From Defluviitaleaceae bacterium (GTDB lineage Bacteria; Bacillota; Clostridia; Lachnospirales; WQUN01): a DNA stretch of 64,000 bases. Below the pieces are notes generated by a model that worked only from the letters and a program-made list of their open reading frames with translations, made no database searches and was not told the DNA's origin. This document shows, one piece after another, positions 58,054 through 64,000 of this stretch. Location: positions 62,001 through 126,000 of the forward strand of contig WQVF01000001.1 of assembly GCA_009781725.1 (NCBI GenBank), written 5' to 3'. The translations under genes were made by a program, and so were the position numbers. The first letter of the stretch is position 1, and each line of letters starts with the position of its first letter.

Positions 58054-58078
58054 AAATTTCTGAAGGCGGGATAATCCT

Positions 58079-59698
58079 ATGCAAACAAAATACGTATTCA
58101 TGACCGGCGGTGTATGTTCTGGCTTAGGCAAGGGCATCACCGCCGCGTCTTTGGGTCGGCTTCTAAAAGCTAGGGGGTACAGGGTCACTATTCAAAAATT
58201 TGACCCGTATATTAATATGCTCCCCGGACTATTAAATCCGGACCAGCATGGCGAGGTATATGTGACCGATGACGGCGCAGAAATGGACCTAGATATAGGA
58301 CATTATGAGCGCTATATCGATGAAAATTTAAGTGCCGTAAACAGCGTGACCGCTGGACGCATCTATACAGAGGTCTTGAAGGCAGAGCGGGAAGGCAAGT
58401 ATCAGGGCTCTACCATCCAGGTAATCCCTCATATTACCAATGCCATCAAGGAACATATTGTTCGTGCTGGGGATAATGCTGACATTATTATCTCGGAGAT
58501 AGGCGGTACCGTTGGCGATATAGAGAGTCTGCCCTTTATGGAAGCCATTCGTCAGGTGCTACATGACAAGGGCTATTCCAATGTAATGTATATTCACGTG
58601 ACCTTGGTGCCCTATCTTGCCTTTGCCGACGAAATGAAAACCAAGCCCAGTCAACACTCTGTAAAGGAATTACTATCTTTAGGTATCCGGCCTGATGCGC
58701 TGGTATGCCGCACAGAGCAGCCCCTAGGGGATGATCTTAAGAACAAGCTTGCTCTTTTTTGCAATGTAGATAAGGAATGCATTATAGAAAACGCTAATGT
58801 GGATTGTATCTACGAGGTGCCTTTGCTCTTGGAAGAGGAAAACTTCGCAGATATAGTATGCAAGCGTTTGCAGCTAGCTCCGCCAGCTCCGGATTTAACC
58901 GAGTGGCGCAGCTTGGTAGAACGCAGTAAAAACGCAAAGGGCACAGTCAATATCGGCCTGATATGCAAATATGAGCTGCGGGATGCCTATATCAGTGTAA
59001 TGGAATCCTTAAAACACGCTGGCATTGCTCTTAATGTAAATGTGAATACGAAGGTAATCCACTCCAAAAATGTCACCAAATCCAATGCTTCAAAGAAGCT
59101 GGCAGGTCTTGATGGTATATTAATACCCGCAGGTTACGGCGGAAGAGATGTAGCAGGGCTTATACTGGCGGCCCAATATGCTAGGGAAAATAAAGTGCCC
59201 TTCCTAGGGATAGGCCTAGGGATGCAATGTGCTGCAATCGAGTTTGCTCGCAATGTGGCAAATCTACAAGCCGCAGATACAACAGAAGAAAAGGAAATGG
59301 AAATCCCTGTACCATTGATTTTCCCCAACCCTCAATCTCCAACGGACCCACCCAAAGCCCCAGGGGATAAGCTCCCAATGCGCAAAGGCACCAAGCCTTG
59401 CAAACTGACAGCAGGCAGCCATTTGCACGCCGCATACGGAGAGACTCTGATTTACGAACGATTCCGTCATATGTATATGCTCAATAACCAATACAGAAAT
59501 ATCCTAGGGGACCACGGGCTAGTAGAGACCGCTCATCCCCCGGATGAGCAGCGGGTAGAGGCAATAGAACTGCCAACAACCTTGCATCCTTGGTTTGTAG
59601 GGGTACAGTTTAGACCGGAGTTTAAGTCCAGAGTCAATCGCCCCAGCCCTATTATCAAGGAGTTTTTAAGGGTTGCCATTGGTGGGAATAATGATTAA
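58079..59698 (+). CDS. pyrG: CTP synthase with degenerate glutaminase domain
   Basis: 539 residues, normal length. The amidoligase half is mostly conserved: GGVCSGLGKGI, QHGEVYVTDDGAEMDLD, EIGGTVGDIES and KTKPSQHSVKELL, so UTP amination with ATP is plausible. In the glutamine amidotransferase half, the nucleophile Cys of GICLGMQ is Gly379 (GIGLGMQ, codon GGC at 59213-59215), the His of QFHPEF is Arg512 (QFRPEF), ERHRHRYE reads ERFRHMYM, and the oxyanion-strand GGFG reads AGYG. Glutamine hydrolysis should be lost, leaving a free-ammonia-dependent enzyme or a pseudoenzyme. The usual NVDPGTMSP reads NMLPGLLNP. It could be a second paralogue. Confidence 0.92.
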   Translation: MQTKYVFMTGGVCSGLGKGITAASLGRLLKARGYRVTIQKFDPYINMLPGLLNPDQHGEVYVTDDGAEMDLDIGHYERYIDENLSAVNSVTAGRIYTEVLKAEREGKYQGSTIQVIPHITNAIKEHIVRAGDNADIIISEIGGTVGDIESLPFMEAIRQVLHDKGYSNVMYIHVTLVPYLAFADEMKTKPSQHSVKELLSLGIRPDALVCRTEQPLGDDLKNKLALFCNVDKECIIENANVDCIYEVPLLLEEENFADIVCKRLQLAPPAPDLTEWRSLVERSKNAKGTVNIGLICKYELRDAYISVMESLKHAGIALNVNVNTKVIHSKNVTKSNASKKLAGLDGILIPAGYGGRDVAGLILAAQYARENKVPFLGIGLGMQCAAIEFARNVANLQAADTTEEKEMEIPVPLIFPNPQSPTDPPKAPGDKLPMRKGTKPCKLTAGSHLHAAYGETLIYERFRHMYMLNNQYRNILGDHGLVETAHPPDEQRVEAIELPTTLHPWFVGVQFRPEFKSRVNRPSPIIKEFLRVAIGGNND

Positions 59699-61569: not shown

Positions 61570-63185
61570 TCAAACTGAAAGCACAATATTACATTGTGCT
61601 TTTACTATTTCGTCATGGGTAATAATTATTATTATTTTATCTTTTTTGATTTGATGGAGATATGCCATGAAACTCTCGGCTGTGCCTTTTTCCAATGCCG
61701 AGCTTGGTTCATCGAAAACCATAACATCTGGGTCTTTATTAAGGACCTTTAGGATAGCGATTTTTTGTTTTTCGCCGCCGGAGGTATTGGTGGTTTTTTC
61801 GTTAAGTTCGTAATCCAGGCCATGTTCTGCTATGAAGTCATTCATATTTAATATATCCATGAGGTTGCCTAATTTTTTATTTAAAGCATCACCGAAACCT
61901 AAGTTGTACCTGATTGTGTCATTAGTTAGCTGTGGTTCTTGCTCCGCAAAGCCTATATGGTCCCGCCGTACGGCTACCATGTTTATGCTTCTGATATCTT
62001 TGCCGTTGTATGTGATACTGCCCTCATATCGTCTATATACATGCCAAGTAGCAGGTTAATCAGGGTTGACTTGCCTGCGCCGTTTGGACCTGTTATTCCG
62101 TAGATATTTCCTTTATGAAATGATGCATTAATGCTGGTTATTGCTTGCCTTGTGAAATTTGTATTATATGAAAACCCTACATTTTGTAGTTCTATTTTTC
62201 CGATGTTGTATAGCAATTGATTGCCCTGGCTCTCTGGTTTTTGGTCTAATATCTCCTGTATCCGGTCATGGGCGACCATAGTGTTTTGATATGTACCCCC
62301 CAAGTTAAAGAAATATCTGCATGCTCCCAGCATCATATTGAAATAGCTGGTGAAAATCGTGAACATCCCAATGGTGAAGTTGCTGGCAAGCACCTGTAAT
62401 CCCCCGATGACAAAGAGAGATATTTGAGCGATGGTTGAAATAGTGCCGTCTGCGCTATTGTAAAAATAGTTGATTTTTTGATTATGTATGGCGGTACCAC
62501 TCAAATTGGTATAACTATCATCTGCTTTTTTAATCATTCTCTCTTGTATGGAATTTATTTTGATTAGTTTAATATATCTCAGCTGTTCAAGCAGCTTGGA
62601 TAAAAACCGTGCCATAGCCTCTTTCTGGGCAAAGCTCGCATTATAAAGAGGCTTCCTGAAGGCGAAATATAGCGCCATGTAGACCCCAACAAATCCGAGC
62701 ATCAAAACAGCGATTAGCCAGTTCATGTTCAACAGAATGATGAAAGGTACTATAACCATGATGGTGTTTGTAATGATGTTTCTTAGCACCGAAATACAAA
62801 ACCCCACAAGGCTGTTTGCATCACCGTTGATTCTTTGGCTTAGGTATGCACTGTCTTTTTGATTGATATATGACAAAGATAGCCTCTGTATGTGCCGAAT
62901 TGCATCTCTGTTGAGGCCATAGCTCATCTTCATTTGCATTTTGGTATTTATTATGGCGGTTATGTAACCCTTTATTATTCTTAGTAAGCTCAGCCCGCCA
63001 AAGATAATGCCAAAACATACAATAACCCCCATATCTGCACCGGATATGAGGGTGTCAAGGAAATCCCCTATTATGTAGGGCGTTAAAATGGATATTGCCG
63101 TGGAGGCAAGAACAATAGCTACATAGCATAGCAAGGAATATTTTTGTGATAAAAGATAGGATTTACAGAGACGAAAGGGTTTCAT
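61570..63185 (-). pseudogene. ABC exporter (TM + ATPase), frameshifted
   Basis: The first part (to 61983) has the exporter TM domain and the ATPase start with Walker A GPNGAGKST, but it leaves the family sequence at GMYIDD near base 62028. The second part, in another frame, resumes EGSITYNGKDIRSINMVAV and continues with Q-loop, signature TSGGEKQKI, Walker B VMVFDEPSSAL and H-loop ITHDE to 61570. Adding one base within CTCATATC (about 62023-62030) restores one protein of about 538 residues. The start at 63185 follows CAGGAGA and overlaps the RCC1 stop by 4 bp. It is a real pseudogene or a sequencing error. Confidence 0.85.
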
Positions 63186-64000
63186 GATATCTCCTGGATA
63201 CTTTGTTCTGCAACCCAATCCATAATCAATCGCATTTCAACCGGTGCAATCTGGCTATACCGTTGCCCATATTCGCCATCCCCCAATTGCCCAAAATGAT
63301 TATCCCCCCAAGCCCAAAGGCTGTTATCTTCTTTTGTTACAATTGTATATGCATGCCAGTCCCAATTTTTCCCGACCGAAACATTGATTACATTATCCAT
63401 TATATGAATGGGTGTATGGCTATTATCCTGTGTACCATCTCCAAGCTGGCCCCAAGAATTATGCCCCCATGCCCAAAGACTGTTATCGGACCGTATTGCC
63501 ATTGAGTGTCCATAACCTGTAAAAGCGGCAATTACATCATCCATAACATGTATAGGTGAAGCAATAGTATCAAAGTTGCCAACTCCAAGCTGCCCCCACT
63601 CATTATGCCCCCATGCCCATAAACTGTTATTACTGCATATGGCTAAAGAATGCCGCCCTCCGGCAGAGGCAGAGATAATATCTTCCATAATCTTGACAGG
63701 GATAGTACTGTCTTCAAACTCTCCCGTACCAAGTGCACCTGCAATACCCCAACCCCACGTCCATAGCGTCCCGTCTAACTGGATAGCCATTGTATGACGC
63801 TCGCCAGCATAGACATACGCAACATTATCCATAATCCGCATCGGTACATGCTGGCCATAGTAGGTGCCGTTTCCAAGCTTTCCTGTGCAATTACATCCCC
63901 AGCCCCATAGAATGTTATCCGAGCATATTGCCATGGTATGCATTCCTCCAGTAGAAACGGAGATTATGCCATCCATAATAAAAATCGGCTCTGCCCGCAT
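63182..64000 (-). CDS. RCC1-repeat protein (5' end beyond window)
   Basis: 272 residues visible; the Met at the window edge is probably internal. At least five RCC1-type blades of about 50 residues with the recurring core HSLAICSNNSLWAWGHNEWG followed by QLGxG, and I-x-MDDVI strands between, i.e. most of a seven-bladed propeller. Bacterial RCC1 proteins are usually surface or interaction modules; any signal peptide lies off the window. It is translationally coupled (ATGA) to the ABC exporter gene downstream. Confidence 0.9.
   Translation of the reverse strand: MRAEPIFIMDGIISVSTGGMHTMAICSDNILWGWGCNCTGKLGNGTYYGQHVPMRIMDNVAYVYAGERHTMAIQLDGTLWTWGWGIAGALGTGEFEDSTIPVKIMEDIISASAGGRHSLAICSNNSLWAWGHNEWGQLGVGNFDTIASPIHVMDDVIAAFTGYGHSMAIRSDNSLWAWGHNSWGQLGDGTQDNSHTPIHIMDNVINVSVGKNWDWHAYTIVTKEDNSLWAWGDNHFGQLGDGEYGQRYSQIAPVEMRLIMDWVAEQSIQEIS

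Follow-up and report, generated by a model that had tools for sequence, protein, structure and literature searches.

CTP synthase is near-universal, and its textbook definition is that of a glutamine amidotransferase activated by GTP. The window analysed here, a stretch of 64,000 nucleotides from a Defluviitaleaceae bacterium, carries a pyrG-type gene in which the nucleophile of the glutaminase site has been lost, raising the question of what its product does and where the nitrogen for CTP would come from. The matter reaches beyond this locus: a natural, conserved, sole-copy form of the enzyme without glutaminase, glutamine pocket and GTP activation separates the role of the amidotransferase (GATase) domain as a catalyst from its role as a scaffold, and the case points to bacteria that may make CTP from ambient ammonia while synthesising no glutamine themselves. 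Our literature searches, which covered open-access papers and few subscription ones, turned up no account of an enzyme of this kind.

Residues lost and kept in the window protein

To compare residues, the window protein was aligned to E. coli PyrG, whose numbering is used for the replaced positions. The gene, its altered sites and two nearby loci at the end of the window are as follows.

58063–58071 (about), + strand: likely Shine-Dalgarno sequence GAAGGCGGG, read directly from the letters
58079–59698, + strand: pyrG-type coding sequence, 539 amino acids, glutaminase nucleophile lost (open reading frame, profile matches, fold)
58079–58876, + strand: amidoligase (synthase) domain, residues 1–266, catalytic and nucleotide residues intact (PF06418, 396.6 bits)
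58403–58405, + strand: Gln109 replacing Leu109 of the L4 loop, involved in GTP activation and coupling (alignment; mutant data in PMC9138612)
58946–59683, + strand: class-I GATase domain, residues 290–535, fold kept, catalysis presumably lost (PF00117, 95 bits; model; Foldseek)
59129–59137, + strand: Ala351 and Tyr353 replacing Gly351 and Phe353 of the oxyanion strand (alignment)
59213–59215, + strand: Gly379 (GGC) replacing the nucleophile Cys379 (alignment; 20 of 20 sequences in the clade)
59375–59386, + strand: Pro433 and Lys436 replacing Thr438 and Leu441 of the GTP wing L13 (alignment; mutant data in PMC9138612)
59462–59479, + strand: Phe462, Met465 and Met467 replacing His467, Arg470 and Glu472 of the glutamine pocket, motif ERHRHRYE (alignment)
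59612–59614, + strand: Arg512 (AGA) replacing the catalytic His515 (alignment)
61570–63218, − strand: ABC exporter with a frame break that divides its ATPase domain between two open reading frames (first part 61983–63218, second part 61570–61980)
63182–64000, − strand: RCC1-repeat protein with four repeats, running off the end of the window

The protein exceeds the PyrG equivalog models over its full length (714 bits against a cut-off of 308, and 681 against 463) and is 45–48% identical to CTP synthases of solved structure. Its predicted fold resembles the E. coli and M. tuberculosis enzymes from end to end (TM 0.86–0.90 by Foldseek), the model, with a moderate pLDDT of 78 and poor at residues 45–85, supporting the fold only. 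The Cys-His-Glu triad of the glutaminase reads Gly379, Arg512 and Glu514, the last of these being the retained Glu517 of E. coli PyrG; the glutamine-binding Arg470 has become Met465, the oxyanion strand PGGFG is PAGYG, the ERHRHRYE motif is ERFRHMYM, and the GTP-activation residues L109 and T438 are Gln109 and Pro433. Judged from these residues, the protein cannot hydrolyse glutamine by the known class-I GATase mechanism. The P-loop, Mg and UTP/CTP residues of the amidoligase domain are conserved: all thirteen that were checked (K18, K40, D70, D72, E140, D147, E149, R158, K187, K189, Q192, R211 and K223) are intact in the window protein and throughout the 20-sequence clade described below, and the gate of the NH3 tunnel, Pro54-His57-Val60, is retained in the clade (position 60 being Val or Ile). 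The sequence-only reading of this locus thus stands on its descriptive points: an uninterrupted frame, a nucleophile replaced by glycine (the codon is GGC, not TGC) and a catalytic His replaced by arginine (AGA is not a His codon), altered ERHRHRYE and oxyanion segments, and an amidoligase half that keeps its Mg and nucleotide residues.

Its account of how these changes arose, as several independent losses under relaxed selection, fares less well. C379G, H467F and the loss of R470 are common to the whole 20-genome clade, and the losses are therefore not all independent or recent; relaxed selection accounts for only part of the picture, given new residues that are fixed or nearly fixed clade-wide and a dN/dS of about 0.05–0.12 in the GATase domain. 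The corresponding values for close pairs in the clade are 0.02–0.08 for the whole gene and 0.006–0.043 for the synthase domain, all of them rough, as synonymous sites are close to saturated in several of the pairs. With low ratios in both domains, the protein is under purifying selection, dead GATase domain included. Of the sites that are near-invariant in canonical enzymes, the C379G clade has on average changed 9% in the synthase domain versus 27% in the GATase domain, where the changes are concentrated in the glutamine pocket and the GTP elements. General decay of the GATase domain was considered and finds no support: the GATase/synthase divergence ratio is 1.78, near the 1.59–1.69 of canonical groups, and the loss of glutaminase is accordingly site-specific. 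Four substitutions, M52L, L441K, H467F and E472K, have reached or almost reached fixation in the clade; they introduce residues absent from 96 canonical sequences and lie in the L2 loop, the GTP wing and the glutamine pocket, outside the UTP site.

In the E. coli or L. lactis enzyme, mutating L109 or T438 impairs mainly the use of glutamine. Mutations of L109, T438, R429 or the L11 loop hurt glutamine-dependent CTP formation and hardly affect the NH3-dependent reaction, and the L11 and L13 elements are important when glutamine is the donor and GTP the activator but have little bearing on synthesis from NH3 (PMC9138612). The positions changed in the clade coincide with these mutagenesis sites specific to glutamine use (PMC9138612).

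Phylogeny, copy number and gene neighbourhood

C379G PyrGs were found in 20 genomes, that of the window included, which belong to several genera of one family whose bins we take to be from higher-termite guts; they form a single branch with a support of 100, the other 19 proteins being 60–73% identical to the window's. Arg470 and His467 are replaced in all 20 sequences and Leu109 and Thr438 in nearly all, while His515 was lost in seven, at separate places on the tree and later than the cysteine. Canonical PyrG copies form a separate branch, the copy of G014 falling elsewhere. Outside the clade, Cys379 is replaced by Gly in three further sequences (G054, L114 and G561) and by Ser in one (G060), and parsimony requires at least four changes on the tree; a single shared origin of all Cys-less PyrGs was tried and is disfavoured (AU p 0.03, for a group named after the tree had been seen). 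Independent pairs of L109 and Cys379 loss are few on the gene tree. In G561, a 96%-complete genome of another family, C379G is combined with H515Q and L109R, and the sole class-I GATase domain is that of its PyrG; G054 has two such domains, and the genome of L114 keeps other GATases and glutamine synthetase. Loss of Cys379 in PyrG is rare class-wide: a strict scan of 391 genomes of the class, with a C379G-type DNA pattern that would miss some variants, returned three matches, namely the window, the G561 PyrG and a GMP synthase of G634. The last (L180, G634:C147 about 759–781), from another family, reads GVGYGMQ, with the GATase nucleophile changed from Cys to Gly.

Two other variants were seen. 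The PyrG of G058 (L051) keeps Cys379 and has lost L109, T438, R470 and E472, perhaps as a half-way stage. L048, the sole PyrG of G012 (96% complete, same family), has a shortened and far more degenerate GATase domain, with the motif GIGSGIH and the oxyanion strand lost.

The search for a second pyrG that the sequence-only reading had proposed found none in the 94%-complete genome of the window, either by PF06418 or by protein search. Among the genomes compared, 14 have only a Cys-less PyrG, six have a Cys-less and a canonical copy, and ten have only the canonical one; eight of the 14 are at least 90% complete, and, all genomes being incomplete assemblies, each gene absence is probabilistic. 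There was no PyrG match in G051, G052 and G055 (96–99% complete) or in G008, all four being 93–99% complete and of the same order, on which grounds CTP synthase may be dispensable in the family or order. All six two-copy genomes have a glutamine synthetase gene no more than 14 kb from the canonical PyrG, and in four of them the distance is at most 3 kb; canonical genes have varying sets of neighbours, among them GlmS, GlnA, an ANTAR regulator, GuaA, the CPS large chain, DAP epimerase and type-III glutamine synthetase. The Cys-less gene is preceded by NTP transferase and RNA pseudouridine synthase genes in 12 of the 20 genomes, often has prfB- and secA-like genes nearby (judged by eye), and in the window and its genus is found near asnS.

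Glutamine economy of the genomes

Glutamine synthetase (PF00120) was detected in all 16 genomes that have a canonical PyrG and in four of the 14 sole-copy genomes (Fisher p 3e-5, with relatedness left uncorrected), and the median number of other class-I GATase domains is 1 in sole-copy versus 4 in canonical-only genomes (Mann–Whitney p 2e-4). Many members of the family seem to have given up glutamine synthesis; G015 and G029 are exceptions that retain type-III glutamine synthetase and several class-I GATases. The genome of the window has no match to glutamine synthetase or to an ammonium transporter, and its assembly holds no class-I GATase domain outside PyrG and hence no ordinary GuaA, CarA, PurQ, TrpG or HisH. 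Among class-II enzymes it has PurF and one AsnB that retains the catalytic Cys, and their persistence means that glutamine is probably not wholly gone from metabolism. Another AsnB, scoring 348 bits against TIGR01536 (cut-off 267), starts with MSGIGG, the nucleophile having become Ser; in AsnB-type proteins of G001, G020, G027, G025 and G009 this position is likewise occupied by Ser, Asn or Gly. Loss of the glutaminase nucleophile extends beyond PyrG, yet is incomplete. AsnB-type proteins with Cys2 changed to Ser, Asn or Gly, from the window's genome and its relatives, are L161, L164, L167, L169, L172 and L174. Ammonia is high in termite guts across feeding guilds (PMC4675541).

Proposed function, alternatives and related enzymes

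Overall, the gene quite likely encodes a live CTP synthase that has lost glutamine hydrolysis and uses free ammonia as its donor, the lineage history set out below included; an obligately ammonia-dependent CTP synthase in lineages moving from glutamine to free ammonia is the simplest and most likely reading. The use of ammonia, its route, the ecological driver and the order of events are what we infer here. The intact amidoligase domain would use ATP to phosphorylate O4 of UTP, and CTP would form when free cytosolic ammonia displaces this phosphate. Entry of the ammonia would probably be by the solvent vestibule/GTP cleft between the domains and then past the retained Pro54-His57-Val60 gate, with the dead GATase domain kept for its structural role in the protein and in the NH3 path. 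The ancestor of the family would have had two PyrGs, and the glutaminase function would have been lost once in this PyrG lineage, probably with the canonical glutamine-dependent copy still present and covering low-ammonia conditions during the loss. Most lineages would later have lost the canonical copy along with the ability to make glutamine, and the ammonia enzyme would be the one CTP synthase left to them.

An NH3-dependent CTP synthase was among the options raised by the sequence-only reading and is the best supported of them, given the sole PyrG, the changed glutamine and GTP sites, the conserved synthase residues and gate, and a genome with no match to glutamine synthetase or to another class-I GATase domain. 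Against the two others, a regulatory pseudoenzyme and a paralogue making a modified nucleotide, speak the intact active site and the sole-copy status. That the protein is catalytically dead or regulatory, makes no CTP and leaves this to cytidine salvage would be in keeping with the four genomes of the order in which CTP synthase is apparently dispensable and with the far more degenerate copy of G012, but we regard it as very unlikely: the thirteen synthase residues are invariant in 20 of 20 sequences, the synthase domain has the lowest dN/dS, and the gene is the only PyrG in 14 genomes. A new product, be it a modified nucleotide or one made with another amine donor, is highly improbable; the clade-specific fixed residues L52, K441, F467 and K472 might suggest one, but they lie away from the UTP site, where K187, K189, Q192, K223, D147 and E149 are invariant, and a sole copy favours a housekeeping role.

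Ammonia could instead be supplied in trans by a separate glutaminase or amidase, making this a glutamine-dependent CTP synthase split over two proteins. Among glutamine-dependent NAD synthetases there are two-subunit forms (PMC3376133), and our searches covered the class-I GATase fold, leaving room for a partner of another fold; such an arrangement is nevertheless very unlikely, as the genome of the window has no other class-I GATase domain, none of the conserved neighbours (RNA pseudouridine synthase and NTP transferase, with prfB and secA as judged by eye, in most of the clade; asnS in the window's genus) is glutaminase-like, and the elements of GTP activation are lost too. A sequencing or assembly artefact, for which only the draft state of the source assembly speaks, has a negligible chance of being the cause, with the identical C379G in 19 other assembled genomes and an AGA codon at Arg512 that is at least two changes from any His codon.

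A more far-reaching version of the ammonia-dependent reading is tentative at best: the GATase pocket may have been rebuilt with Leu52, Lys441, Phe467 and Lys472 as an ammonia inlet or new effector site, as part of a lineage-wide shift to ammonia as amide donor. Such a shift would be read from the disappearance of glutamine synthetase and most class-I amidotransferases and the parallel loss of nucleophiles in AsnB paralogues.

Compared with PyrG of E. coli, M. tuberculosis and T. thermophilus (PF06418 and PF00117, TIGR00337), the window protein shares the two-domain architecture and fold, all synthase residues and the gate Pro54/His57/Val60, but lacks the nucleophile, the catalytic His, the glutamine-pocket Arg and the GTP residues of L4 and L13. 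In E. coli CTP synthase blocked at Cys379 by DON, NH4+-dependent synthesis persists by way of a side channel next to Phe353 (PMC11211670), and no new chemistry would thus be needed; the glutaminase is out of action in both cases, the block being laboratory-made in one and natural, fixed and conserved in the other. Ammonia is also the in vivo donor of the single-domain NAD synthetase, a reaction that is glutamine-dependent in other lineages (PMC3376133), much as it would replace glutamine in the window PyrG. That enzyme, however, has no glutaminase domain, and its use of ammonia is proposed to be ancestral, whereas the window PyrG has kept the domain in a secondarily inactivated form. The precedent for such a retained domain is vertebrate CPS1, which keeps an inactive ancestral class-I glutaminase domain with the Cys replaced (Ser294 in human) and the pocket altered, and uses external ammonia (PMC4655335). 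A dead glutaminase domain retained under selection beside an intact synthetase is found in the window PyrG as well, and gene content indirectly supports NH3 as its donor in vivo. CPS1 differs in its synthetase, its purpose in the urea cycle and its activator, and in having Ser where the window PyrG has Gly; by analogy, the window PyrG is most likely the CTP-synthase counterpart of vertebrate CPS1.
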